From NCBI RefSeq assembly GCF_014696715.1, contig NZ_JACJQO010000006.1, forward strand, positions 248,001 to 312,000: a stretch of 64,000 nucleotides of DNA, read 5' to 3'. Made by a program: the position numbers and the translations under genes. This document shows positions 12,390-29,852 of the stretch, one piece after another. The DNA is from Pseudanabaena sp. FACHB-2040 (GTDB taxonomy: Bacteria > Cyanobacteriota > Cyanobacteriia > Phormidesmidales > Phormidesmidaceae). The notes beneath the pieces are model-generated. The model was not told the DNA's origin and searched no databases. It saw only the letters and a list, made by a program, of their open reading frames with translations. The stretch's first letter is position 1; the number at the start of each line of letters is the position of its first letter.

Positions 12390-13631
12390 ATGGATGAGAC
12401 GTATGAACCCATGAAGTGGGTCAGCGCCCTATCTACTCGAGCCTCCCTAGAGGGCGCTGTTGGGGAGGTGGTTGAGCACATCCAGGCTCGCTTTTCAGGC
12501 CAGCCAGACCTGGGGTTGCTCTTTATTTCATCGGCTTTTGCCAGCGAACTTCCTCGGCTGTTGCCCCTGCTGCAAGAAGCCCTACCAATGCCTGCTCTGA
12601 TCGGCTGTAGCGGCGGCGGGGTAATCGGCATGAGCCCCGACGATCTGGCCCTGGAAGTTGAGGGCAAGCCCGCCCTCAGCCTCAGTGTCGCCTCTCTACC
12701 GGGAGTCAAAGTTCACAGCTTCCATCTTCCTAGCGGAGCATTGCCTGACCTCGACAGTCCACCTGGCAACTGGATTGATCTAATCGGGGTAGACCCGGCA
12801 GACAACCCCCAGTTTATTCTGATGGCCGATCCCTTCGCCTCAGGCATCAATGATCTGCTGCAGGGTCTAGATTTTGCCTATCCCGGAGCCGTTAAGGTGG
12901 GTGGCTTGGCCAGTGCCAACGGCCTCAACCGCAGCAGCGGACTATTTTGCGATCGCACTCTGCACCAAGAAGGCATTGTCGGGGTCGCCCTCTGCGGTCA
13001 CGTTGTTCTAGATACAATCGTGGCTCAGGGCTGTCGCCCGATCGGCAATCCCTACCGAGTTGCCGAAGCCGAGCGCAACATCTTGCTCAGGCTTGAAGAC
13101 CCCGACAGCAATAATGAACTGCGCCCCCCGCTAGAGATTTTGCAGGAGCTGTTTCAAATCCTCAGCGAAGAAGACCGCAGCCTCGCTCAGCACTCTCTAT
13201 TCATAGGTGTTGCCCAAGACGGCTTTAAGCTCACCCTAGAACACGGCGACTTCCTCATCCGCAACCTGCTCGGCGTAGATCCTAAAGCCGGGGCCATTGC
13301 CATTGGCGATCGCATTCGCCCCGGCCAGCGAGTGCAGTTTCACCTGCGCGATGCTCGAACCTCCGCCGAAGACCTAGAAACCCTGCTCAGCCGCTACCAA
13401 CTCCAGTCGCAGTTTCAAACCGCCTCTCCAGTAGGAGCCCTGCTGTTTTCCTGCATGGGCCGGGGCGAAGGTCTATACAAAGAGCCCAACTTCGACTCCC
13501 GGCTATTTAACCGCTTCCTCGATCAGGTACCGCTTAGCGGCTTCTTCTGCGGCGGCGAAATTGGCCCCATTGGAGGAACCACATTTCTCCACGGGTATAC
13601 CTCGGTATTCGGCATTTGTCGGCAGCCGTGA
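12390..13631 (+). CDS. FIST N/FIST C domain sensor protein
   Basis: A 413-aa soluble protein with the FIST architecture. The N-terminal FIST domain (about residues 20-220) carries LIGCSGGGVIG. The C-terminal FIST_C domain (about 225-400) ends with GFFCGGEIGPIGGTTFLHGYTS. FIST domains are proposed to sense small ligands, possibly amino acids, and in many bacteria are joined to or near signalling proteins. Here the domain stands free but lies just beyond the pix chemotaxis operon, so a sensory link is possible. No enzymatic residues are apparent. ATG at 12390 begins the frame; a second ATG is at residue 8. Confidence 0.85.
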   Translation: MDETYEPMKWVSALSTRASLEGAVGEVVEHIQARFSGQPDLGLLFISSAFASELPRLLPLLQEALPMPALIGCSGGGVIGMSPDDLALEVEGKPALSLSVASLPGVKVHSFHLPSGALPDLDSPPGNWIDLIGVDPADNPQFILMADPFASGINDLLQGLDFAYPGAVKVGGLASANGLNRSSGLFCDRTLHQEGIVGVALCGHVVLDTIVAQGCRPIGNPYRVAEAERNILLRLEDPDSNNELRPPLEILQELFQILSEEDRSLAQHSLFIGVAQDGFKLTLEHGDFLIRNLLGVDPKAGAIAIGDRIRPGQRVQFHLRDARTSAEDLETLLSRYQLQSQFQTASPVGALLFSCMGRGEGLYKEPNFDSRLFNRFLDQVPLSGFFCGGEIGPIGGTTFLHGYTSVFGICRQP

Positions 13632-14313: not shown

Positions 14314-14871
14314 TTAGACATTGACTGGAGAGGGCGGCAGCAGCGGGGGCAAGACCTGCTCCAAATCCAGCAGAAAAATAGGATCCTCTTGTTGCGGTAA
14401 AGAAATAACAGCATTTACACAGCGCATCTGGCTCATGCTCAGAAAAGCCACCGAAATCGGGGCAAATGCCGATTGAGGCACCCGCCGAAGCACTGGGGCA
14501 TGGCTCACCACCAGACCCAGCACTTCAGCAAGTTGGGGCAATTTAATAATCACCACATGGCGGGGGTCGATCAGTTCCGGCAAAGGTAGCTTGGCTGAAT
14601 AACCGACAGCAGGTAAGACGGCCTGGGGCACATCTCGGTAGATGTGGCGCTCTAGATCAATCGTTGGCACCCGGTGGCCATCAATCAAAATCAGCCCCAA
14701 GCCATGGGCATGTCCGCTGCTGTGGACTGCAGTCAGGGGCACCACCTTTTGCGCCGTCTGAATTGGCAGGGCAAACCAATCCTGACGGACAGGAAAGGTG
14801 ATCATTTGGTGAATAGGAGCCCTCGGCAGGGCCTTGAGGTTGCGGCGAGCAGCTCTTCTCGAAGAGGTCAT
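14314..14871 (-). CDS. Second CheW-like protein of the pix operon
   Basis: A 185-aa CheW-domain protein. The beta-strand pattern MITFPVRQDWFALPIQTAQK, GLGLILIDGHRVPTIDLER and the final FLLDLEQVLPPL match CheW folds, which couple receptors to CheA. An N-terminal basic leader of about 20 residues (TSSRRAARRNLKALPR) precedes the domain. It is the last gene of the pix operon, 19 bp after pixL. It is additional to the PixI homologue at 21764-22291, so two CheW adaptors serve this pathway. The Synechocystis pix cluster as I recall it lacks this distal gene. Confidence 0.8.
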   Translation of the reverse strand: MTSSRRAARRNLKALPRAPIHQMITFPVRQDWFALPIQTAQKVVPLTAVHSSGHAHGLGLILIDGHRVPTIDLERHIYRDVPQAVLPAVGYSAKLPLPELIDPRHVVIIKLPQLAEVLGLVVSHAPVLRRVPQSAFAPISVAFLSMSQMRCVNAVISLPQQEDPIFLLDLEQVLPPLLPPSPVNV

Positions 14872-14890: not shown

Positions 14891-17800
14891 TTAACTGACT
14901 ACGGCCTGCTCAACAAGCGCTGCCAGCGTCTTGAGCAGAAACTGTTCGTTGTAGGGCTTAGTGAAGTAAGCAGCGGCACCTAAGTTGGCAGCCAGCTGCC
15001 GGTGTTTTTCGCTGCCCCGTGACGTGAGCATGGCAACCGGCAGTAAGTCATGGACCGGTTGGGCCTTAATTTGAGCCAAGAACCCATAGCCGTCGAGTCG
15101 CGGCATCTCCACATCACAGAGCACAGCATTAACCGTTAATCCTGCATTCAATTTGTCCAAAGCATCTTGCCCATCTTTAGCCTGAGCCACTTGATAGCCT
15201 GCTTTTTCAAGCGTCAGGGCCAACAACCGCCGCACATTAATCGAGTCGTCGATGACCAAAATCGTTGGCCTTTGGGGCCGCTTCAGCATCGTTCCTTGGA
15301 AAGGCGTACCAGCAGCTTCCGAGGCTGGCAAATACCCAGCCATTGCGGGCCGATTAGAAACAGGTTGATTGGGTTGCTTGCTGTCGCCATTTACCTCAAG
15401 GCTGGCCACCCAGTAGAGCAGTTCAGGCACATTAACCAGGGGCACCACCTGACCATCGCCCAAAATGGTGCAGCTGTTAAAGCCAGGAGGCATAGGCAAG
15501 TTGCCCTCAATCCGGCGAATCGCCACCTCTTGCTCACCCCAAGACCGCTCTACCTGAATGCCAACCAGCCGACCGTTATGTTCGACCAGCAGCACTGTAG
15601 GAGCAGAAATAGTCGGCGCAATTTCTGGGGTTTCTAGCTGCACCGGGCAGTTAAAGACCAGCCAGCGGGCCAGGGGCACCAGCTGCACAATCTGGTCTTC
15701 CCACTCAAACATCTCTTTGCCTGCGGTAGACATAATCTGCTCTGAGGCCAGCAAAAGCAGCTCCTCAATAGCATCCACCGGAAACGCCATCCGCATCCCG
15801 TGGCTTTCGACGACCAGCACCCGAGTCACCGAGAGCGTATACGGAATTGACAGGGTAAAGGTCGTGCCCAGCCCCGGTTGAGTATCCACCTGGATATCGC
15901 CCCGAATGTCTTTTAATCGACTGCGGACAACGTCCATACCAATGCCTCGACCAGAGAGATCGGTGACCCGACCAGCAGTGCTAAACCCAGGCTCAAAGAT
16001 GAGCGATAACAGTTCCTGGTTGCTAGCTGCGCTCAACAGCCCCTCGTCTAAGCCCATCTGGCGAGCCTTAGCCCGGATTTTTTCGGTGTCGATGCCGCCA
16101 CCGTCATCACGGATGGTAATCAGAGTGCGGCTGCTCTGCTGGTAGGCTCGAATTTCAATCAAACCCTTTGCCGATTTGCCCTGGGCTAGCCGGGTCTCGC
16201 TGTCTTCAATCCCGTGGTCAAAGCAGTTGCGAATGATATGAGTCAGCGGCTCCTGCAAAGCCTCTAGGACGTTGCGATCGACCAGGGTGCGCCCTCCCTG
16301 GATTTTAAGATCAACCGGCTTACCATACTGCAGAGACATCTGCCGCAGAGCCCGGGGGAAGCGATCGAAAGTGTCTGAGAGGGGACGCATCCGCAGCTGC
16401 GTCAAATTCTTCTGGAGCTGACGGGCCGTTTTACGCAGATCACGGCAGGTCTGCTCCGTGTTGTCGAGGGACAGGTCAATATCGGCCCCGACCTCCTGAA
16501 GCTGCACGATGGTCTCAATAGTTTCTCGAAAGGGCAGATGCACATCCCGGTAGCGATCTAGCTCCAGCACGTCAAACTGGTCCCGAATCGTGGTCTGACT
16601 GAGAGACTCTTCTAATAGCGTTAGAGTGTGGCCGTTGTGGGCCACTTCCCGTTCAGCCGCAGCCGCCAGCAGAGGCTGCTGTAGAGCAGAGTTAGTCGTC
16701 TGGGTAGCTACTCGGTCGTAGGCGGAGCGCAACTCGCCGTTGATTTGGTCCATCACCCGCAAGCGATCTTGTAGGTTCATCACCAGGTCACGCAGGCGCT
16801 TGACTTCCAGCTCAAGCCGGTTGCGCTCAATGGTGAGTTCACCAAAGAGGTCACTGAGCTGGTTAATCTGCAGCACCGGCACCCGCACTGTGTTCTCCTG
16901 AAGCGTCTCGGTAGGAGTAGGCGCTTCAGTCCAGGCAGTGTTAACAGCAGGTTCGGGCCGAGAAATGGCCTGTACCTCAGTGGGCTGGTTAGCGGCGGCT
17001 TCTGCTGCCTCGGCAGCCAACCACTGGGCCAAATCTGCCTCCAGGGTGTCGGTTGGCAAATCTAGTTCAGAGGCGGCCGCTGGGGTACTGTCAGCCGCAT
17101 CAAAGCTATCAGTTAGGCCTAGGCTCTCAACTGCATCAAAGCTGTCAGCTAAGTTGAGATTTTCAGTGTCGAGACTTTCAGCCTCAAAACCCTCAGCGTC
17201 AAAACTGTCAGCGTTGAAACTCTCAGCCGCATCAAAGTTATCAGTCAGAGCGAAACTCTCAGCGGCGTCAAAGCTATCAGTCAGGCCCAGGCTCTCAGTC
17301 AAGTTCAGACTCTCCGCAACCTCAACTTGGCTGAGCGGCAGAGCGTTGGGGATAGTCGCCAGATTACCTGTCACCACTAGGGCTTGGGTACGCCTCCAGA
17401 CTTGCAAAGAGGCTTGGGCCACCGAAACAATCTGGTCATCGTTGACACTTTCAATTTGCTGGGCAATGGACTGGCAAAGCTGCACAAAGGCTTCTATCTG
17501 CAGCATTTCGCCCAGACCCTCTAGCTCCTGAGCCAGAATGGCGACTTCTTCTTTGAGCCGCGGGTCTTGACGGTCGAGTACTGACTCTAGCCGCTGCAGG
17601 CAGCCTTCGACTTCGGTTTCAAACAGCAGCGGAATGATGTCTTGACCGTCTTCTGGAGAGAGCATGGAGTGAGCATCTTCTTCCTGAGGCTCACCTAGTC
17701 GCTCATGCAGCTGCAGAAACAGGGGGTTGGCTTCTTTTTCTAACCAGTCAGGGGGCAGCTCATTTGCCCTACCCCCTGACTGAGATTGAGGCCGATCGCT

Positions 17801-18115
17801 GGCAATTACCCGGCCCATGCAGTCTATACACCGCAAAAGCAGCTGCTCCAGACTGGCATCGACGGTAACCGAGCCCCGCTGAATTTTTAGAACTTTCAGC
17901 CCATCTTCCAGACGGTGGGCCAGGTCGCTTAGGGTTTGAAAGCCCATCAGACCGGCTCCGCCTTTGATCGAATGGGCTGCTCTCAACGCCTCGTTAATCT
18001 TTTCTGCTTCGACTACCTGGGCCAAACCCAGTAGCCGAGATTCTAGAGTCTCCAGGTATTCCTGGGCCTCGTCTAAAAACTGCAGTCGAATTTCAAGTTC
18101 CTTATCTTGGGCCAT
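14891..18115 (-). CDS. pixL: CheA-type hybrid histidine kinase PixL
   Basis: A 1074-aa kinase of the phototaxis pathway. Domains in order: Hpt with phospho-acceptor His in AAHSIKGGAGLMGF (about residue 44); an acidic repetitive linker (about 275-360) rich in SFDA and LTDS units; a dimerisation helix region; an HATPase with N-box HIIRNCFDHGIED and G-boxes DDGGGID and GRGIGMDVV; a CheW-like regulatory domain; and a C-terminal receiver with DD, the phospho-Asp in LCDVEMPRLDGYG and the Lys in FTKPY. The start is MAQDKELEI at 18115; 25 upstream in-frame residues (Cys-rich) are not family-like. It should phosphorylate its own receiver, PixG and PixH under control of PixJ. Confidence 0.92.
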   Translation of the reverse strand: MAQDKELEIRLQFLDEAQEYLETLESRLLGLAQVVEAEKINEALRAAHSIKGGAGLMGFQTLSDLAHRLEDGLKVLKIQRGSVTVDASLEQLLLRCIDCMGRVIASDRPQSQSGGRANELPPDWLEKEANPLFLQLHERLGEPQEEDAHSMLSPEDGQDIIPLLFETEVEGCLQRLESVLDRQDPRLKEEVAILAQELEGLGEMLQIEAFVQLCQSIAQQIESVNDDQIVSVAQASLQVWRRTQALVVTGNLATIPNALPLSQVEVAESLNLTESLGLTDSFDAAESFALTDNFDAAESFNADSFDAEGFEAESLDTENLNLADSFDAVESLGLTDSFDAADSTPAAASELDLPTDTLEADLAQWLAAEAAEAAANQPTEVQAISRPEPAVNTAWTEAPTPTETLQENTVRVPVLQINQLSDLFGELTIERNRLELEVKRLRDLVMNLQDRLRVMDQINGELRSAYDRVATQTTNSALQQPLLAAAAEREVAHNGHTLTLLEESLSQTTIRDQFDVLELDRYRDVHLPFRETIETIVQLQEVGADIDLSLDNTEQTCRDLRKTARQLQKNLTQLRMRPLSDTFDRFPRALRQMSLQYGKPVDLKIQGGRTLVDRNVLEALQEPLTHIIRNCFDHGIEDSETRLAQGKSAKGLIEIRAYQQSSRTLITIRDDGGGIDTEKIRAKARQMGLDEGLLSAASNQELLSLIFEPGFSTAGRVTDLSGRGIGMDVVRSRLKDIRGDIQVDTQPGLGTTFTLSIPYTLSVTRVLVVESHGMRMAFPVDAIEELLLLASEQIMSTAGKEMFEWEDQIVQLVPLARWLVFNCPVQLETPEIAPTISAPTVLLVEHNGRLVGIQVERSWGEQEVAIRRIEGNLPMPPGFNSCTILGDGQVVPLVNVPELLYWVASLEVNGDSKQPNQPVSNRPAMAGYLPASEAAGTPFQGTMLKRPQRPTILVIDDSINVRRLLALTLEKAGYQVAQAKDGQDALDKLNAGLTVNAVLCDVEMPRLDGYGFLAQIKAQPVHDLLPVAMLTSRGSEKHRQLAANLGAAAYFTKPYNEQFLLKTLAALVEQAVVS

Positions 18116-18209
18116 GATGACTTTCTTGAATGGCTGATGGACGGGGCAACAGTCACAGCAAAACAGGCTGCTAGGCACGCTTAGGGGCAACGAACCTTTG
18201 GGCAGCGCG

Positions 18210-18240: not shown

Positions 18241-21200
18241 CTAGACCTGATCTCCAGTGTTGAATGTCCCTACCGAAGCCTGCAGCTCTCGGGCAACTTC
18301 CACGGTTTCCCGCAGAGCGCCAGAGATCTGGCGGGACGAGTCAGAGGTTCGCTCTGAAACCTGAGCGATGTCGTGCATCAGGCGCGAGACAGCTTGGGAA
18401 GTCTCTACCTGAGACACAGTTGCAGTAGAGATCGACTGCACCAACTCATCAATCTGACGAGACACCTCTAGAATCTGGCCCAAGTTACGCTTGGCGTCTT
18501 CGACGAAATGCGTACCCTCGACGACTCGGCTGGTGCTTTGCTCCATCGCGTCAACTACCTCAGCCGTCTCCCGCTGAATGTTTTCCACGATGCGCTCAAT
18601 TTCCTTGGTGGCGTCTGCTGAACGGGCAGCCAGTTCACCAACTTCTTCAGCGACCACTGCAAAGCCCTGGCCTTCCTCTCCGGCCCGAGCTGCCTCAATT
18701 CCGGCATTGATGGCCAGCAGGTTGGTCTGCATAGCAATCTGGTTAATCAGCGATACGGCCTTAGAAATCTGCTGCGAAGATTCACCCAGGCGCTTCACCT
18801 TCTTTGAAGTCTCCCCGATAATTTCTCGCAGATTGAGAATGTTTTGCACCGTCAGGTCCATCGCGTTGCCGCTGGTTTCAGCCGTAGCAGATGCGCTGTG
18901 AGCTACATCAGCCGCCTGTCGGGCACTGGTAGCCACTTGCTGAATAGACTGAGTCATGATTTCCACCGAGTCGAGAATTCGGGTGGTTTCCTCTGCCTGT
19001 TCTAGGGCAGCCTCAGCCAAGGTGGTAATGGCGCTTTCGTTTTGCCCCAAGGACTGGTTGACCTGCTCGGCTGACAGCTTCACCTTGGTAACAATCTGGC
19101 GCAGACTTTCAACGATAGAGTTGAAAAAGTCAGCAACTGTACCAATTTCACCTGCCGTCACATCAGCCCGCACCGTCAGGTCGCCACGAGAAGCTCCTTC
19201 AACATCGCTCAACAGCTCTACCAGCTGGCGCTGCAAAGACTCCTGTTTCTGACGGCTCTCTTGTGAAAGAGTCTCTGCCTTAGTCAGCAGGCGAGCTTGT
19301 TCTACAGCAAAGCCAACCTGTCTAGCCACCTGCCGATAGAAGTTGACATCTAGAGCAGTCCAGACCCGAGGCCCGTCGCACTGGTGAGCAATCAATAGGC
19401 CAATCAGCGCGTCTTGTACCAGGATAGGCGCTACCAGGTTAGCTCGCACCTTGTAGGGTTCGAGCTGCTTGAGGTGACACTCGGTCAAGTCAGAGCCCTG
19501 AATATCTGTGGTAGCCTGCACCCGCCCTTGCCGGTACTGCTCTACATAGCGTTCGGCAAAGCAGGGATCGTAGATTGAGTCGGTCAGGGCTGTTGGCCAG
19601 CCCGACTCTACGGACTCTGCTACGAAGGTGCCTCTCCATTTTTCATCGAAGAGGTACACCAGCACGCGCTGGTTATTCAAAACCCGCCGGGTTTCAGCAA
19701 CAGCTGTGCGGAAGATGTATCCTTCCTCTAGGCTCTCCCGCATGCGTAGGACGATTTCGTTCAGCTGCCGTTCTTTATCTGCTGCTTGCTGCTGCTGGTC
19801 AAGCAGTTTGGCCTGACCTAGGGCGTAGCCAGTCTGGATCGAGATTTGCTGCAGCAGGTCGATCTCCTCTTGCTGCCACTGGCGCGGCCCAGAACACTGG
19901 TGGACACAAATTAGGGCTACCAGCTCATCAGCACACATGATAGGGGCTACCATATTGGCTCTGACTTCCATCCGCTCCAAAATGTCACAGTGACACTGGC
20001 TGAGCTGAGCTGTCTCCCGGTCATTCATGTAGGTCACGCGTCCGGCGTAGTAGCGCTCGATAGCATCTGGGCTCAGGGGATCGTCAATGATCTGGCCCAT
20101 AGACCGCTTCCAGCCCCGGCGAACCGACTCTGCCGTGACTTCACCGCCCTTGAGATCGCTATTGAAGCGATAAACGACGACCCGGTCTACATTGAAGAGT
20201 TCTCGTACGCCTTCAACGGAGGTGCCCAAGATAGTGCGTTCATCCAGGGACTGACGAATGTCGTTGGTCAGTTTCGTCACTAGCTGAGCCCGTTCTACAT
20301 TCTCTTGAGCAGTGGTGTATTGATCTTGCAGCAACTGCTCTGAGTAGGTGATGTTGTCAGCCAGTTGGTTGAAGGAGTGAGCTACTCGACCTACCTCATC
20401 GCGAGAGAAGATAGCGGCACGCGCCTGCCGATCACCCATGCCAAATTTCCAGGCGGCCTGCTGCAAATGCCGCAGCGGCCTAGCGATGGAGCGAGCCAAC
20501 AACTGGGCCAGAATCAGGTTGGCGGCCACAGCCAGCAGAGCCACCAGAAGCTGAAGCCTCAAGCTGTCGCCAAAGAGACTGTTGAGGGCTGTTTCGGACG
20601 TACCGCGTACCAGAATAGCGGCGGGTTCTCCGGTAAAGGTGGGCAGGGCTTTGGCAGCTAGGGTGTAGGTGCGATCGCCTACCACATCTCGCTGGGCTAC
20701 CACCCCGCCATTGGCGGCGGCGGCCTGCTGCAACAGGGCTGGGCTAGAAAGCTCTACCGCCGATTGAGCCTGGCTCAAATTAGAGTTGTCTTGACTATCG
20801 AGAGCCGTTGCCAGGGCGAAGCTGCCGTCTTCCTGCTGCTGATAAATGGCGCTGTAGCCATTGCCAACAGTGGATAGCGTCTCCTCAAGAATGGTGGTTT
20901 TATTATTAACCACATCACCTGCTACCAGGGCAGCAATTACCTGATTGGTGGCGGGGTCTCTAACGGGGGTGATCGTATAGCGGATCAGGGCATCTTGACC
21001 GGCAAAGCCCTCTGGAAGAGGCGGTGCTTCTCGCTGCAGCTCCTCCCAGCTAACGACGGCGCTGGCCTTGATTTGCCGGGGGTTTTGCAAGACCGTGCCG
21101 ACCAGTCCTTCTGGGTCAAACCGCTCACCTGTACGGTTGGCATTGGCGTTGACAATAATATTTAGGTCGTTGCCGACTAGAGTGGCATATTCGATTTGGC

Positions 21201-21732
21201 GCGCCTGAATTTCGTTCTGCAGAATGCGCTTGACTTCCTCCTGGTTTGCAGGAGGAACGGCTCGCCCATTGGCATAGGCAACAGCCAAATCGATAACAGC
21301 TCGGTTGTCTGACTGCCCTCGGAAACCAAACGCCATCTGGTCGACTTTGATGTTGTAGGTTACTTCCGTGACCGCTAGCTCTGCTTTGGCCTGGTCTAAG
21401 AGCTGACTACGCCCCCCATTGACTATTAGAAAGGAGCCAACCCCAACCAGACCGACGACCGAAATAGCCTGAGTGGTTGCTAGGCCCAGCGCCTGCTTCT
21501 GGCGAACGCTTAGGTTGTAAAACCACTGCGTAAGAGGCCATTTGCTTTTTTCTGTGACCACAATGGGGTCTTTAGCGGCAGCGTTATAAGCTGTACCGCG
21601 ATATTTTGAGGAATCCTGTCCAGGCTGGCGGATTATTGCATTGGAGTCGCCGTAGCCGTTTGTTTCACTGGGTTGGCCTAGGCCAGGTTTGCCAGACTGA
21701 GCAGGAGAAACTGGGTGGAATTCAGTGGTCAT
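18241..21732 (-). CDS. pixJ: Phototaxis photoreceptor PixJ, methyl-accepting protein with two bilin-type GAF domains
   Basis: A 1163-aa transmembrane receptor. Order: cytoplasmic N-tail; TM1 (about 82-104); large periplasmic region; TM2 (about 392-412); HAMP; GAF1 (about 495-645); GAF2 (about 670-825); a second HAMP-like region; and an MCP signalling domain with the hairpin tip around [23 protein letters not shown]2 has the DPCF motif (19555-19572) and the chromophore Cys-His in [19 protein letters not shown]. That is the dual-cysteine DXCF cyanobacteriochrome type, which in known PixJ proteins senses blue/green light. GAF1 also has Cys-His (LSQCHCDIL) but no DXCF. It is 31 bp after pixI and signals to PixL through CheW adaptors. 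Confidence 0.93.
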
Positions 21733-21763: not shown

Positions 21764-22291
21764 TTAGGCTGAGTGGAATTGCAGAGCGGAGGACTGGACA
21801 ATAGCTTCAGCATTGAGAGCCAGCAGCACTTCGGCAGGTTGAAGAATGCACCCTCTCAGGTAGGGAATTAGGGTGGCAGGAATATGCGCCGGAGGAGCTT
21901 GAATCATCTCTGGACTGATGCTGAGAATGCCGTCGATTTCGTGAACTCGCATGGCCAGAGAGACTGTGCCCACCTGCATCAAAATCAGGTTGTACTGGTG
22001 CGATAGGGCTTGAGCAATGGGCAGACCCAGGAGCAGTGCTAAATCAGCGACCCAAACCACACGGCTGCGGCGGTTGATCAGGCCAAGCATGCAGGGCGGC
22101 ATATTCGGCATGGGAGACACTCGCTGGGCCGGAACTGTGATGGCCTCCTGAATGTGCCGAGTAGGCATGACTGCGGGCGTCTGCAGACCCAGGTGAAATT
22201 TCAGGTGTGTGTTGCCCGACTTGCCGAGCAGGGCCGGAGCTAAGGTTCCCTGAGCAGTTTCTCGGCGCAGGATGAGGGAAGTTGTGTTCAT
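21764..22291 (-). CDS. pixI: CheW-like adaptor PixI
   Basis: A 175-aa CheW-domain protein linking PixJ to the PixL kinase. Conserved stretches include MPNMPPCMLGLINRRSRVVW, VADLALLLGLP and LILMQVGTVSLAMRVHEIDG. Its ATG (22289-22291) overlaps the TGA of pixH (22288-22290), so the two are translationally coupled. Position between pixH and pixJ matches the classical pix operon order. Confidence 0.9.
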   Translation of the reverse strand: MNTTSLILRRETAQGTLAPALLGKSGNTHLKFHLGLQTPAVMPTRHIQEAITVPAQRVSPMPNMPPCMLGLINRRSRVVWVADLALLLGLPIAQALSHQYNLILMQVGTVSLAMRVHEIDGILSISPEMIQAPPAHIPATLIPYLRGCILQPAEVLLALNAEAIVQSSALQFHSA

Positions 22292-22674
22292 AGACCTACT
22301 CCCAACAGGGACACGACGACGCGCAGCAGCTGTTCGCGGGTATAGGGCTTGGTGAGATAGGCATCAGCACCTTGTCTCATACCCCAAAGGCGGTCAATTT
22401 CCTGATTCTTAGAGGTGCAAATGACAATGGGGACTTTGGCGGTTTCTGGGTTCTTTTTCAAGCTGCGGCACAGCTCAAACCCGCTCATGCCGGGCATAAC
22501 GACATCGGTCACGATGACATTTGGCTTGTACTGAGTGGCCTTGTCTAGCGCTTCTTTGCCGGTCACGGCATGAATGACAGTGCAGCCACTTTCTCTTAGG
22601 TAGTGGCTCATCAGCTCCATTTCAGAAGGAGTATCTTCAACAATCAAAATAGTTCCTGTCAAAGTAATCGCCAT
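22288..22674 (-). CDS. pixH: CheY-like response regulator PixH
   Basis: A 128-aa single receiver domain. The acidic pair is in LIVEDTPSEME, the phospho-acceptor Asp in VIVTDVVMPGMSGFEL, and the conserved Thr and Lys in VICTSKN and YLTKPYTREQLL. There is no output domain. In related systems PixH/PilH acts on or sinks phosphate from the kinase controlling type IV pilus motors. It overlaps pixI by four bases. Confidence 0.93.
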   Translation of the reverse strand: MAITLTGTILIVEDTPSEMELMSHYLRESGCTVIHAVTGKEALDKATQYKPNVIVTDVVMPGMSGFELCRSLKKNPETAKVPIVICTSKNQEIDRLWGMRQGADAYLTKPYTREQLLRVVVSLLGVGL

Positions 22675-22808: not shown

Positions 22809-23879
22809 TCAACTTAGATGCTTAAAGATGATTTTGAGCAAATCGGATTGGTTAAAGGGTTTGGTTAAGTAACCCGAGGCTCTTACCAGCTTGGCTTTGG
22901 CTCTATCGATAAAGCCGGTATTGCTTGTCACCATAATGATTGGTACATGCTTAAAGTCAGAATGACGCCTCAATAGAGAACACAGCTCATACCCATCCAG
23001 GTTGGGCATAGTAACGTCTAACAGGATTAGATCAGGCTTGTTTCTAATTACTTGCATCAGCGCTTTAACCGGGTCGCTGATCATTAGAACAGAAAACATC
23101 TTGTCATCTAGAAAGTCGTTGATGGCTCTTAAAACCGTTGGACTATCGTCAATACAGGCAATGGTATAAGTACTCTTGCTGGAGGGCTTTAAGATGCCTG
23201 AATCAGGCCTCGAAGGGGCCGGAGTATCGGGGGCTGTATACGGAGCGGGGGCTGTGGGTAGGGTGGTGGTGGCGTTGCGGTAATCTCCGTTGCGCTGCAG
23301 CATTGGAGAGGACGGTTGAGCCGATGAGCCATTGCCTTGGCGCTGTTTTAAACGGTTGTAGCAGTCCTCAACCATTGGCCTGAGGCTAAATTGCCCCAGT
23401 CTAGGTAAGCCCAACAAAAAGTCTGTTTCAAGCAGTTCCGGAGTGCCTTCTCGAATGCCTAAAAAGCCCTCTAGAACTTCTTTAGATAGGGTTTCGATCA
23501 GGGCGACAGCTTGATCGGAGGGAAGGTGCTGCTGCTCCACCAGCCAGCAAATGGCTCGGTAGTCGGGACAGGCATCGGTAGGTAGGTCTGCCTTTTCAAA
23601 CAGCAGCCGCACCTGTACCCGGACAGCACTAATCAGGGTGGGAACTTGGCCGCTGAATCGCCTGAGATAGAGGTCTAGGCGGTCAAATGGCTGGAAGGAT
23701 GTGGTGGCATAGGTCAGTTTGCCCCGTTCCAGATACAGTAGCCAGGCCCCCTGCTCAGCGGTCACTTTGAGGCATCCGGTAGCCTGACGACTACTCATCT
23801 GCGCCAATAAGCTCAAGGGATGCAGAATTTGAGAGGGGCGATAGGTAGTCATAGGGACTGGATTGAGAGAAGGGTACAT
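22809..23879 (-). CDS. pixG: PatA-type response regulator PixG
   Basis: A 356-aa protein with an N-terminal PatA/DUF4388-type domain (about residues 15-180, with ATGCLKVTAEQGAWLLYLER), a Pro/Ser/Thr linker (about 190-230) and a C-terminal receiver. The receiver has ACIDDSPTVL, the phospho-Asp in LILLDVTMPNLDGYEL and Lys in GYLTKPFNQSDL. It is the first gene of the pix operon and should be phosphorylated by PixL, with output probably to type IV pilus-driven movement. The start is uncertain: ATG at 23879, or ATG at 23852 (MTTYRPSQILHPL), which is closer to typical family N-termini. Neither has a good ribosome site. Confidence 0.88.
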   Translation of the reverse strand: MYPSLNPVPMTTYRPSQILHPLSLLAQMSSRQATGCLKVTAEQGAWLLYLERGKLTYATTSFQPFDRLDLYLRRFSGQVPTLISAVRVQVRLLFEKADLPTDACPDYRAICWLVEQQHLPSDQAVALIETLSKEVLEGFLGIREGTPELLETDFLLGLPRLGQFSLRPMVEDCYNRLKQRQGNGSSAQPSSPMLQRNGDYRNATTTLPTAPAPYTAPDTPAPSRPDSGILKPSSKSTYTIACIDDSPTVLRAINDFLDDKMFSVLMISDPVKALMQVIRNKPDLILLDVTMPNLDGYELCSLLRRHSDFKHVPIIMVTSNTGFIDRAKAKLVRASGYLTKPFNQSDLLKIIFKHLS

Positions 23880-24816: not shown

Positions 24817-27429
24817 TTAATCGAGCGACTTAAGCATTGCTCGAATTTTGCCCCGCTGCTGGCGATCTAGTGAGGTGGGAAATGTTAGCTCTAGCGCCAC
24901 TTTAGGATCTTCTAAAAAGGCGTTGCCCTCCAGCCAGACAACTTGGGGATTTAGCACATTGACTTCGCTCACCTGGGCCAGCAGGCTCTGGGCATCGCCC
25001 TGATAGCTGGGAAGCAGTAGACCCAGCATTGGCCGATCCTGACGCAGGGTGTCGAGGTCTAGGTCGCTCAGCCCGACGACTTCCAGCCGTAGGTCGCGGG
25101 TGCCTAGGGCTACCACTTCGGCCTGGTAGCTCTGGCCCATCCAGCCGTCCCAAACCAGCTGCACAGGAGCCCGCATCTGTTTGCGCATCTTAATGCCCAG
25201 CTCCGGCTTAAATTCGCTAAAGACTCGCCCTAAGCTGGTAGAGATAAAGCGCAGGGAGTCGAAGGGGCGATCGCTGTGGATGCGGTGCTGGGCATACCAC
25301 TCTTTGACGTCGGAGAAGATTACTAACGACAGATCGTCGGACTGGGTGCGGCTAATATTGATGAAGTCTAAAGAGATCAGCGTCTGGAGCTTGCTGGTGG
25401 CAACAGCCCGGATAATTTTGGCATCAAGCAGAACTCGGGCATCGTAGTCACCAATCAGCTCAACTCGCACTTGATCGGGAACGTTGGGCCATTCATCTAG
25501 CAGCAGTTGAGCACCGGACTCGCTGACGTTGACCGTTTTGCCCGGCCAGCTGCGATCGTCGCTGTAAACTACGGCTGTGAGCTCACGGGGCAGTCGGTGG
25601 GCACGGCGCAGCTGGGGCTGCTCAAAGGCGACTAGGCAGGCCGACAGCACCAGCACCAGGTTAAAGACACACCAGAGGGCGTTGATCAACACGGCTTGGC
25701 TGTCTTCGGGGCTGAGAATTAGCCAAAAAGGCACTGCGACGAGCGAAGCGGCAGTAATAACTCCCAACATGACCAGATAGCGCACGCTATCGAGGTCAAA
25801 GTTGCGCTTATCGACCGTTAGGCCCTTGGCGGTGACATTGAAGCTGCCCAACTTGGGATTGATCAGAGCCAACAGGGTGACAATCCCGGCCTGAAAGGAG
25901 AGGGAAAATTCGTAAATTTCGTTCCAGAAGGAAAATCGGACGTGCTTGTAGGGGATGTGGTTGGTCTGCATCGACAGTGCGATGTGGGGCAGGGCGTAGA
26001 GCAGTGTCTCTAGACCCAAGCCTTTAACAGAGTTGATGCTGAATAGCAGAAAGAGGTTAGGTGCGATCGCATACATCAGCCGGGGAAAGCCGAAGAAGAA
26101 GTGCGAGGTCGCGCTGAAGTAGCAGACCCGCTGGGGCAGGTTGAGATTCAGTTTGCGGTTAAACAGTGGGTTCTCTAGCCGCAGAATCTGAGCCATGCCG
26201 CGAGCCCAGCGCACCTGCTGCCCTACGTAGGCCGAAAACTTTTCGGGGGCCAGCCCGGCCACCATAATTTTGTCGTAATAGACCGTCTTATAGCCCCGCG
26301 AGTGCAGCCGTAGGGAGGTATGGCAGTCTTCGGTTACGGTTTCGGTGGCAATGCCGTCAATTTCTAGCAGATACTTGCGCCGTACTACCGCTGCCGAGCC
26401 GCAGAAAAAAGCTGCGTTCCAGGTATCGTTGCCCTTTTGCAAGACCTTGTAAAACAGCTCGTTGCCGACCGGCACTTGCCCCTGGGTCAGCAGGTTGCGC
26501 TCAAACGGGTCGGGGTTGTAGAACCAGTGGGGGGTCTGCACCAGGGCCACGGCAGTGTCGTAGAAAAAGCCCACCGTCTCCTGTAAAAAGCTTCGCACCG
26601 GAATGTGATCGCAGTCGAGGATCATCACCAGATCCCCCTCGGTGCGCTGTAGGGCGGTATTGATGTTGCCCGCTTTGGCGTGGTCGTTGTCGTCGCGGGT
26701 CAGCATAACGCAGCCTAGGTCTTCGCAGGTGCGGGCCAGCTCAGCCCGACGTTCCGGGAATTTGCGCCCATCATCGAGCACATACACCTGCTTTTTGTAG
26801 GCCGGATAGTCTATAGCGAGGGCTGCCAGCGCCGTCTTGCGAACGATTTCGACCTCTTCGTTATAGGTGGGAATGTAAATATCGACCGTGGGCCAGCCTA
26901 GCTCAGGCCACTGGGCGAGATCCACAGACCGCCGCTGCCGCAGGCTCAAGGTCTGAAAGTAGGAAAGAAACAGCGTACCTAGGGCGTATAGCTCAGCTAG
27001 AAATAGCAGGATGGAAAAAAACGCATCCAGCGGGCTATCAAGATTGAGCGTGTAGTTAGTGCGGTAGTAGAGATAGCGCAGGGTCGTCAACGAGCTGAGC
27101 ATTACTAGAAAGAGGTGCAGATACTCCCGCAGCTTGGGCTGGCTGGTATAGCGGTCTTCTAGGCGCTGCACCACAGCTCCAATGCCAATCAGCATCAGTG
27201 CCACTAGCAGCTGCTCATAGACCCCCGAGTGCAGCGTAATTAGCGGCACCGTCATCAGGCCCAGACAGGCCATCATCAGAAGCAGCTGCCAGGTATTGAG
27301 CCACTGCACCCCGGCATTGACAGCCTGCGGCCAGGTTTCGGTCAACCAGCGCGTCAGCCGCTGTGGCCCCTGGCCCGATCTGATCCGGGCACGAGACTGT
27401 TGATAGAGGCGAAAGGGAAAACCCGTCAT
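24817..27429 (-). CDS. bcsA: Cellulose synthase catalytic subunit with PilZ domain
   Basis: Family-2 glycosyltransferase that polymerises UDP-glucose and moves the chain across the inner membrane. The 870-aa protein has four N-terminal membrane helices, then IYIPTYNEE and LDDGRKFP (about 182-215), DCDH (about 272), TEDCH (about 364) and QQVRWARG (QxxRW, about 402). More membrane helices follow. A C-terminal PilZ domain (from about 600) has RRAHRLPREL and NVSESG, the c-di-GMP-binding pattern, so activity should depend on c-di-GMP. The start is MTGFPF at 27429, 11 bp after the bcsB stop; the open frame extends 43 residues further but overlaps bcsB. It is the last gene of the operon. Confidence 0.93.
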   Translation of the reverse strand: MTGFPFRLYQQSRARIRSGQGPQRLTRWLTETWPQAVNAGVQWLNTWQLLLMMACLGLMTVPLITLHSGVYEQLLVALMLIGIGAVVQRLEDRYTSQPKLREYLHLFLVMLSSLTTLRYLYYRTNYTLNLDSPLDAFFSILLFLAELYALGTLFLSYFQTLSLRQRRSVDLAQWPELGWPTVDIYIPTYNEEVEIVRKTALAALAIDYPAYKKQVYVLDDGRKFPERRAELARTCEDLGCVMLTRDDNDHAKAGNINTALQRTEGDLVMILDCDHIPVRSFLQETVGFFYDTAVALVQTPHWFYNPDPFERNLLTQGQVPVGNELFYKVLQKGNDTWNAAFFCGSAAVVRRKYLLEIDGIATETVTEDCHTSLRLHSRGYKTVYYDKIMVAGLAPEKFSAYVGQQVRWARGMAQILRLENPLFNRKLNLNLPQRVCYFSATSHFFFGFPRLMYAIAPNLFLLFSINSVKGLGLETLLYALPHIALSMQTNHIPYKHVRFSFWNEIYEFSLSFQAGIVTLLALINPKLGSFNVTAKGLTVDKRNFDLDSVRYLVMLGVITAASLVAVPFWLILSPEDSQAVLINALWCVFNLVLVLSACLVAFEQPQLRRAHRLPRELTAVVYSDDRSWPGKTVNVSESGAQLLLDEWPNVPDQVRVELIGDYDARVLLDAKIIRAVATSKLQTLISLDFINISRTQSDDLSLVIFSDVKEWYAQHRIHSDRPFDSLRFISTSLGRVFSEFKPELGIKMRKQMRAPVQLVWDGWMGQSYQAEVVALGTRDLRLEVVGLSDLDLDTLRQDRPMLGLLLPSYQGDAQSLLAQVSEVNVLNPQVVWLEGNAFLEDPKVALELTFPTSLDRQQRGKIRAMLKSLD

Positions 27430-27440
27430 GTCAACTCCCG

Positions 27441-29852
27441 TTAGTCGTCCTGGGTAAGGGTGCGATTTAGATAGGACTGAGCCACACCGTAGAGCAGCAA
27501 GGCCATGATCACGGTCCCCGGCACAACCAGCAGCCAGTTGGCTCTGAGCAGTCGCCAAATCCAGGGAGGCGTTGGCGTGGTGGCCAGCTGCACTTGGGGC
27601 GACTCGCGCAAAAAGGCTAGCCGGTAACCGTGAGGATCGTTGGGGTCGGCGTCGGGTGCATTGGCGCTAACCAGGGCGGTATCACCTTCGATCTGGTAAA
27701 ACAGGGCATCGTGACGCACGAGGTCGGTGAGACTGGCTAGACCTTGCTCGTCTTGGCCGCTCAGGGCTAGAATCACCCGCTGACCATTCCAGGGGGAGAT
27801 CAGGGTTTTCATGACACCTTCAGGGTCCGGTAGGGCCTGCACTTGGCTGCCGCCCCACTGCCGCGATAGCCGATCTCTGAGGTTAAAACCCTCGCTGCTA
27901 AAGACTTCTGGGAAGGGAAACTGGGCGCGGGTGCCGATGGCGATTAGGTTGCGATCGCGCTTTACCTCCTCGGGCAGCGTTTCCACCCGAAACACCTGGA
28001 GCTGCACTGACTCGGCCCGGCTCAACCGCCCTAGCCGTTCCGCCATCTCTAGCAGCAGGTTGAGGTCGGCAGGCCGAGGGCTATCGGGCAACACCATCGC
28101 CGTAGTTGAAAGGTCTTGCGGTGCGGTAAAGGGAAAGCCGGTGCTGAGCAGCTTGAGATCGGGCAGATTTGCGATCGCTTGCCGGTTCAGCTTGAACTGG
28201 CTATCGCCATGAATCGTGCCCCAGAGCTGCTGATCGGTGACCCGGCTGCAGGAGCGGCGTTCCCGAGGATCTAGGCGAAAGTTGACGCGCAGGCGGGAGT
28301 AAGGCGTAATTTTTTCAGCAGGCAGCGCCACTTTAAGGGTTTCTCGATCGGCCCCTTCTAGCGCCGTCAGCCGCTTGCCATCTACGGCCACCCCATCTAG
28401 CTCAACCTCAACCAAGGAAGTCAAGGGGTTCACCTGAGGGCCGTAGCTGTAGTTCAGCACCAGCTCATTGCCGGGCTGAAACTGATCGTCGGGCAGCGCC
28501 TTGAAGTCCACCTCCAGAGCCGGTGCATGGGAACCTCGCACCGTCACATCCCCCAGGGGCTGCTGAGTAGACGTCTGCAAATCCTTTAGCTGAAAGCTCT
28601 CTGACGTCGGCAGATAGCCAGGCCACTGCCGCGCTGGCGGCGACTCTAGCTGAGATACCTGATTGACCAGCAGGCCATGACCTACCGCAATTTGATGGTC
28701 GCCAGGTTGGGCCAGAAACTGCACAGCCTTAGCGACCCCTGCCGGTCCATTACCAGAGGCCACCAGTACCGGCACCCGGTTCTCAGCGGTGGTGCTCCAC
28801 ATCAGCACGCCCACCTCGGGAGCCAGGGGTTTGCCGCTGCCGTCCTGAAACTTGCCATCTTTGAGGGCAAAGGGCAGTGCTAGATCTGCCAGAGCCGGTT
28901 GAGTTTCTGGTGTGCCAATTACCACCAGCCGTTCATCCGGGTTAACGGCCCCGATAGAGTCAATCAGGCGCGTGTCGAGCGGGCGGTAGTGGGCCACTCG
29001 CCCCAATGCCGCCTGCAGCCGAGCCGCATCGGTCAACCAGGCATCTTCGACTGTCGTGGGCAGCAGGTAGACAACCTGGTTAGTCTGCAGACTGAGGGTG
29101 TCGAACAGCGGGTAGGGAAACTGGTCAAAGTTAGGCGTTACCGGCTGGGGCTCAAAGTTAAACACCAGCTTGGAGTCGGGCAGCACCTCAGTCCACAGAG
29201 AAGGATCGTAGGGGTCTTGGGTGCAGGTAGGGGAATTGTTTTGCAGGGCTGCTACCACCAGCTCATTGTGGTCTTGCAGCAAATCCAGCGGCACGTCAAA
29301 CACCGCCTCGCCAATTTCGCCCTCCAGTTGGTTCAGCGGCAGACTGCCGACGCTGGTGCCGTTGAGCAGCACCGTCAGGTTAGAGCGAGTGGCATAGAGG
29401 GCAGGCGAGTGACGGTAGCGCAGCAGCACCTTGACGGTTTCTGCCTGCCAGTTGCGAGGCCGGGTAAACTGCAGCCGCCGCTCGTCATAGATACCGCTAA
29501 AGCGCAGGCGAGTGCCCACCACCGGACTGCGATTAAACTCCAGCACATACTGGCCCTTGGGCGCAGGGCTGACCACTGGGCTGGCCGGCAGCGCCTCGGG
29601 CAGGGGCAGCAGTTCGGCAGTCGGGGCAGCAGTTGAGGCAGCAGCCGGAGCAGCATTCTGAGCGGCAGCGGGCGGGCGGGTGGCGGGCGGAGCAGCATTC
29701 TGGGCCAGCACTGCGGGCAGAGGTAACCCAGTGAGCACCGCCAACGTCAGACCCATCAACAGCCCTAACGAACGGCGGCAGACGCGATGAGAAAACCGTC
29801 TAGAGGCCACAAGGGCAGACGACCGAGAGGGGGGAGAGGAGTTGGTAGACAT
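27441..29852 (-). CDS. bcsB: Cellulose synthase periplasmic subunit BcsB
   Basis: An 803-aa partner of BcsA that guides the glucan through the periplasm. An N-terminal signal sequence (GLLMGLTLAVLTGLPLPAVLAQ) is followed by an Ala/Pro-rich spacer. Large beta-rich domains follow, typical of BcsB, with PQNLPLP-like surfaces such as LRFSGIYDERRLQF and NNSPTCTQDPYDPSLWTEVL. A single C-terminal membrane helix (LLVVPGTVIMALLLYGVAQS, about 775-794) is the piece that packs against BcsA. It lies directly upstream of bcsA. Confidence 0.9.
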   Translation of the reverse strand: MSTNSSPPSRSSALVASRRFSHRVCRRSLGLLMGLTLAVLTGLPLPAVLAQNAAPPATRPPAAAQNAAPAAASTAAPTAELLPLPEALPASPVVSPAPKGQYVLEFNRSPVVGTRLRFSGIYDERRLQFTRPRNWQAETVKVLLRYRHSPALYATRSNLTVLLNGTSVGSLPLNQLEGEIGEAVFDVPLDLLQDHNELVVAALQNNSPTCTQDPYDPSLWTEVLPDSKLVFNFEPQPVTPNFDQFPYPLFDTLSLQTNQVVYLLPTTVEDAWLTDAARLQAALGRVAHYRPLDTRLIDSIGAVNPDERLVVIGTPETQPALADLALPFALKDGKFQDGSGKPLAPEVGVLMWSTTAENRVPVLVASGNGPAGVAKAVQFLAQPGDHQIAVGHGLLVNQVSQLESPPARQWPGYLPTSESFQLKDLQTSTQQPLGDVTVRGSHAPALEVDFKALPDDQFQPGNELVLNYSYGPQVNPLTSLVEVELDGVAVDGKRLTALEGADRETLKVALPAEKITPYSRLRVNFRLDPRERRSCSRVTDQQLWGTIHGDSQFKLNRQAIANLPDLKLLSTGFPFTAPQDLSTTAMVLPDSPRPADLNLLLEMAERLGRLSRAESVQLQVFRVETLPEEVKRDRNLIAIGTRAQFPFPEVFSSEGFNLRDRLSRQWGGSQVQALPDPEGVMKTLISPWNGQRVILALSGQDEQGLASLTDLVRHDALFYQIEGDTALVSANAPDADPNDPHGYRLAFLRESPQVQLATTPTPPWIWRLLRANWLLVVPGTVIMALLLYGVAQSYLNRTLTQDD

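Follow-up and report, generated by a model that had tools for sequence, protein, structure and literature searches.

A PixJ-type phototaxis receptor of Pseudanabaena sp. FACHB-2040 combining a dual-cysteine DXCF domain with a DXCF-related GAF domain of a distinct, apparently uncharacterised class

The window analysed in this study, a stretch of 64,000 nucleotides of Pseudanabaena sp. FACHB-2040 (contig NZ_JACJQO010000006.1, positions 248,001 to 312,000), harbours a pix operon lying entirely on the minus strand. According to Pfam assignments it comprises, in gene order, a pixG-like gene encoding a DUF4388 (PATAN-type) domain and a receiver (22809-23879), a pixH-like CheY receiver (22288-22674), a pixI-like CheW (21764-22291), pixJ (18241-21732), a pixL-like CheA with Hpt, H-kinase_dim, HATPase_c, CheW and receiver domains (14891-18190), and an additional CheW-like protein (14314-14871). 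This neighbourhood corresponds to the tax1/pix genes known from Synechocystis (PMC5812497). The genome also carries a bilin-reductase homologue (Fe_bilin_red), a search for plasmid copies of pixJ found none, and among the next-best MCP homologues of the genome the GAF-bearing one (L002) lacks the canonical cysteine.

The open reading frame of pixJ, for which a preliminary description had given no strand, is read from the minus strand and codes for a membrane MCP photoreceptor of 1163 aa, in which Pfam detected HAMP, two GAF stretches and MCPsignal. Hydrophobic stretches in the translation predict two membrane helices (aa ~79-103 and ~391-412, within 20497-21498), separated by a presumably periplasmic region of about 285 aa; a confident family or a solved relative was sought for this region and none was found, dCache_3 (E 0.01, Pfam) falling below the cut-off. 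There follow the HAMP domain (aa 411-461, 20350-20502), GAF1 (aa 480-652, 19777-20295), GAF2 (aa 652-824, 19261-19779) and the MCP signalling domain (aa 941-1125, 18358-18912). GAF1 is thus the N-terminal, membrane-proximal domain, and lies at higher coordinates than GAF2 because of the minus-strand orientation of pixJ. Since transmembrane helices, HAMP, cyanobacteriochrome (CBCR) GAFs and MCP are all present within a pixGHIJL set, the predicted product is a PixJ-type cyanobacterial phototaxis receptor.

GAF2 combines the motif DPCF (aa 722-725, 19558-19569), in which C724 (19561-19563) is the second cysteine, with the canonical pair C752-H753 (C752 at 19477-19479, within ECHL at 19471-19482). 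The motif DPCF had been recognised in the preliminary description, its coordinates (19555-19572) being a few bases off. The domain matches TePixJ of Thermosynechococcus (PDB 3vv4, 4glq) with an E value of 1e-46, shares with it the motifs DPCF, CHLKQL (CHL.QL) and VRANLVAP (VRANLV) as well as the fusion to an MCP, and is placed with it on the DXCF side of our tree. By these features GAF2 is an ordinary dual-Cys DXCF domain and, by kinship to TePixJ, most likely a blue/green switch, for which a PVB photocycle would be expected. TePixJ differs, in contrast, from the GAF1-type domains (DP-L/CHC), which form a separate clade.

In GAF1, alignment with TePixJ, AnPixJg2 and PPHK, a check that had been proposed beforehand, matches C580 (19993-19995) with the attachment cysteine of these proteins, inside the pocket, and shows that H581 (19990-19992) and the second histidine, H611, are also kept. 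Both GAFs of the receptor therefore possess the Cys-His pair attributed to them, and the motif LSQCHCDIL, formerly located near 19981-20005, spans exactly 19978-20004 (aa 577-585). The absence of a DXCF motif was likewise correctly noted: GAF1 reads DDP-L where GAF2 reads YDPCF, and the comparison of I-DDP-L with the Y-DPCF of TePixJ, GAF2 and other DXCF GAFs shows it to be one residue shorter exactly at the position of the second cysteine, whose deletion sets it outside the DXCF subfamily as defined. The pocket Asp of the truncated motif, D551 (20080-20082), aligns with the DPCF Asp. Two further cysteines distinguish the domain, namely C582 (19987-19989), at +2 from the canonical one, and C609 (19906-19908), a strand residue invariant in the class to which GAF1 belongs and also found in some other CBCR GAFs. 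An AlphaFold model of GAF1 (pLDDT 92, pTM 0.88) has the fold of phytochrome and CBCR GAFs, PPHK (6oap), AnPixJg2 (3w2z) and TePixJ (4fof) being among its best matches (Foldseek E 1e-18 to 1e-15; VIA Z 23-25), and in it the attachment cysteine (model residue 101) opens helix 100-108, as expected. GAF1 thus combines a Cys-His in the attachment helix with the conserved Asp, as a cyanobacteriochrome does.

The nearest solved relative of GAF1 is the dual sensor histidine kinase PPHK (E 3e-34, 42% identity), which likewise has a canonical Cys-His and no DXCF cysteine, but differs in its DQYF with a full-length loop, in its CHV and in being a histidine kinase rather than an MCP. Assignment to the XRG red/green type was rejected, as GAF1 reads I-x-DP-L, has no Trp, lacks the WXDXXL motif and lies apart from AnPixJg2, NpR6012g4 and Slr1393g3 in the tree; assignment to the Insert-Cys type was also rejected, given that the alignment shows no loop insertion before the DXCF region. 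With Ile at +4 (Gln in DXCF domains), Leu or Met at +8 (Phe or Tyr in DXCF domains) and no XRG Trp, the colour of GAF1 is not predictable from any characterised class.

A first set of 216 GAFs was extended by 86 further ones, giving about 300 aligned domains in all. In the first set, C-H-C occurred in 45 domains, all 45 of which read DP-L or DP-M, and D551, P552, C580, H581, C582, C609, H611 and C613 were invariant among them; as many as 27 of 173 positions were invariant in 44 members, so that invariance alone is not extraordinary. D551, C580 and H581 were retained in nearly all of 77 members of the GAF1 class. Throughout the alignment, a cysteine at 582 was present in 79 domains, that is, in all those of CHC or RHC type, the gap accompanying it in 79/79, and in 0/169 of the domains with a DXCF cysteine. 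In a quick tree, whose support values are SH-aLRT only, the class came out as a single supported set of 53 rows (SH-aLRT 98) that is related to DXCF domains and stands apart from the red/green references; next to it lies a DP-F/CHR group sharing this deletion. Sister GAFs of this kind (L038, L058, L174, L176, L185; DP-F, FREG, mostly CHR) show the one-residue deletion and no extra cysteine, and some PixJ-like proteins consist wholly of them.

Using GAF1 as a query with a domain-level threshold of E <= 1e-45, matches were obtained in 80 of the 390 cyanobacterial genomes of the class, belonging to 33 of 159 genera and three families, a few weak ones (e.g. L174, L185) proving to be DP-F relatives. 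The exact CHC+DXCF tandem was also found in Nodosilinea nodulosa PCC 7104 (L011), Oscillatoria sp. CS-180 (L019) and Drouetiella hepatica (L021). A short DNA pattern for the CHC codons was uninformative, its matches in the genome being not far from those of a reversed-pattern control. Alignment and tree identify GAF1 as a member of a conserved and distinct class, related to DXCF domains, whose second cysteine would have been lost by a one-residue deletion; this clade, with its deleted DXCF cysteine and its extra invariant one (C-H-C), had been overlooked in the preliminary description. The class is apparently uncharacterised, as no characterisation of a DP-L/CHC GAF was found in the PDB or in the part of the literature searched, which covers only some of the CBCR papers. 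'Tandem-cysteine' was discarded as a name for it, the term designating whole phytochromes (TCCPs) and having no CBCR use in the searched literature.

GAF1 is as conserved as GAF2, with mean pairwise identities over 37 tandem proteins of 0.597 and 0.579, respectively. The architectures in the first set were CHC+DXCF (29), three GAFs with CHC first (5), CHC+CHC (1) and CHC as the sole detected GAF (8); six of the last eight are full-length proteins of 930-962 aa linked to an MCP, whereas L031 and L039, the remaining two, are truncated ORFs and lend no support to a single-GAF architecture. In five loci (L044, L052, L054, L057, L063) a single-GAF CHC-class MCP is found with a second protein bearing a degenerate short-loop GAF (RHR, RYR, SYR), MCP-linked in all but L054; by their motifs these are pairs of an intact and a decayed receptor.

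GAF2 might be the only chromophore-bearing domain, GAF1 being a structural relay or dimerisation domain with ancestral pocket residues, as in Synechocystis PixJ1 (Sll0041/TaxD1). This two-GAF protein shares with the present receptor the two transmembrane helices, the C-terminal MCP and the tax1/pix gene set, and carries PCB in GAF2 only (PMC5812497); the GAF1 described here, by contrast, has a complete attachment motif, that of PixJ1 having been compared by description. In the same vein, C580 is lost in four orthologues (L088, L121, L122, L127), and the first GAF of the Nostocales-type loci L040 and L041 has Glu-His or Glu-Tyr instead of Cys-His. In L088 and L127, Arg replaces C580 while H581 and C582 are kept (R-H-C); these could be either apo domains or cases of non-canonical attachment, and they count against a bilin-bound GAF1 in that the class can persist without attachment. 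In L121 and L122, whose domain is still 73-74% identical to that of a sister, D551, C580, H581 and C582 changed together (D551 to N, C580 to E, H581 to Y, C582 to G); both come from one genus and may represent a single event. Such a joint loss suggests that the four residues probably serve one function, and that C582 decays along with the bilin pocket. However, a cysteine loss that takes other pocket residues with it is the pattern expected of a bilin-binding set, 45 members sharing about 60% pairwise identity all keep C580, H581 and D551, and the six full-length proteins have the GAF1 type as their sole detected GAF, all of which argues against a chromophore in GAF2 only, a reading that we consider unlikely.

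C582, invariant and class-specific, is the most unusual feature of GAF1. A domain that is dual-Cys after all, with C582 (alone or with C609) standing in for the DXCF cysteine as a second thiol ligand that binds reversibly or as a redox switch, would be in line with the distribution of this residue (79 domains with the gap and 0 with a DXCF cysteine, of 300 aligned), with its retention in the two RHC members and its disappearance together with the pocket in L121 and L122, and with the relocation of the second cysteine in other lineages, i.e. Insert-Cys and AM1_1186g2 (PMC5240096, PMC6628166). Like GAF1, the latter have an extra cysteine outside DXCF, but there it is located either in helix alpha-3 or within an insertion loop, whereas GAF1 is free of insertions and carries its additional cysteine, of putative function, at +2 from the canonical one. 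Nevertheless, the tree traces the coincidence of C582 and the gap to roughly one event, which makes it a synapomorphy and one observation rather than 79 independent ones, and in the sister group the gap is present although C582 is not. As C609 is found in 20 further domains that lack C582, it was rejected as the class-specific partner of this residue. Moreover, an ideal helix puts +2 about 200 degrees from the attachment cysteine and it is +4 that faces the bilin; in TePixJ, this position is occupied by Q526, and the bilin twists in its direction (PMC6955287). By this geometry the side chain of C582 is probably directed away from the bilin and a direct attack on C10 is unlikely; C582 may have a redox function or contribute to packing. 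A second thiol ligand or redox switch at C582 accordingly appears quite improbable to us, and we are just as doubtful of a further dual-Cys or redox-tuned lineage founded by GAF1, with the DXCF thiol deleted and chromophore tuning or a redox role assumed by C582, perhaps jointly with C609. If this takeover were true, two different thiol-based colour mechanisms would be found in one phototaxis receptor.

The spacing of the domains is regular. In 54 of 56 proteins, 172 residues separate the GAF1 cysteine from the next DXCF cysteine; the same interval lies between successive DXCF cysteines in 12 of 13, and in none of the 56 proteins scored does a DXCF GAF come before CHC. From HAMP to GAF1 the distance is 135 in most proteins, and the MCP tip lies 264 or 257 residues beyond the last GAF, a difference of one heptad. 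A model of the tandem joins GAF1 and GAF2 by a single continuous helix of 44 residues, and the fixed spacings would fit a signal passed on mechanically by helices that keep their register.

We therefore favour, with a probability of about 0.7, a receptor in which both tandem GAFs bind a phycocyanobilin-derived chromophore via their canonical cysteines, GAF1 as a single-Cys and GAF2 as a dual-Cys domain, one MCP integrating two colours. Domain order, pocket residues, class membership, fixed spacing, the operon and the bilin reductase gene are read directly from the sequence, and on this footing bilin attachment, colours and their integration may be envisaged as follows. Each GAF would carry its bilin on the canonical cysteine (C580, C752), GAF2 acting as a dual-Cys blue/green switch. 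In GAF1, the lack of the DXCF cysteine makes a C10 adduct by that route impossible and argues against a blue dark state; a longer-wavelength dark state, green to red, would be expected, as a PCB or PVB adduct. A photochange in either GAF would be conveyed by the continuous, fixed-length helices from GAF1 to GAF2 to the MCP, and from there to the CheA-like PixL and the PixG and PixH receivers. Thus GAF1 is most likely a working single-Cys cyanobacteriochrome, differing in colour from GAF2 and feeding the same MCP, and the receptor is probably sensitive to two different colours.

The earlier expectation that usually only one GAF of a PixJ binds bilin holds for Synechocystis PixJ1 and the classic PixJs, but not for PtxD (NpF2164) of Nostoc punctiforme, in which at least six of seven GAFs bind bilin and which is required for phototaxis (PMC5812497). 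PtxD shares with the present receptor, by prediction, one MCP fed by several bilin GAFs, but has seven of them rather than two, DP-L/CHC followed by DXCF. PixJ proteins with one to five GAFs have been described (PMC13383048), and since multi-chromophore MCP receptors were thus known, surprise at two bilin-binding GAFs is only moderately justified; the less ordinary part is the class of GAF1. PixJ-like proteins with five tandem GAFs, each with DPCF and Cys-His, were found in L090/L115 and L095, pointing to the occurrence of many-chromophore receptors elsewhere in the phylum. Should GAF1 bind bilin, it would open up a cyanobacteriochrome class that is both widespread (matches in 80 of the 390 genomes sampled) and sharply delimited, together with a natural case of a blue-shifting cysteine lost by a single deletion, in a receptor whose steering may rely on comparing two colours. 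With their heptad step and strict spacing of 172 residues, these proteins would further provide a clean system for the study of tandem-photosensor signalling to one MCP.

Directly upstream of the pix operon and on the same strand, a cellulose synthase-type glycosyltransferase with PilZ and a BcsB homologue are encoded (24817-29852, minus strand), an arrangement that suggests linked control of motility and c-di-GMP-dependent cellulose. On the opposite strand, the operon is adjoined by the gene of a FIST-domain protein (12390-13631, plus strand); FIST proteins often accompany signalling genes.
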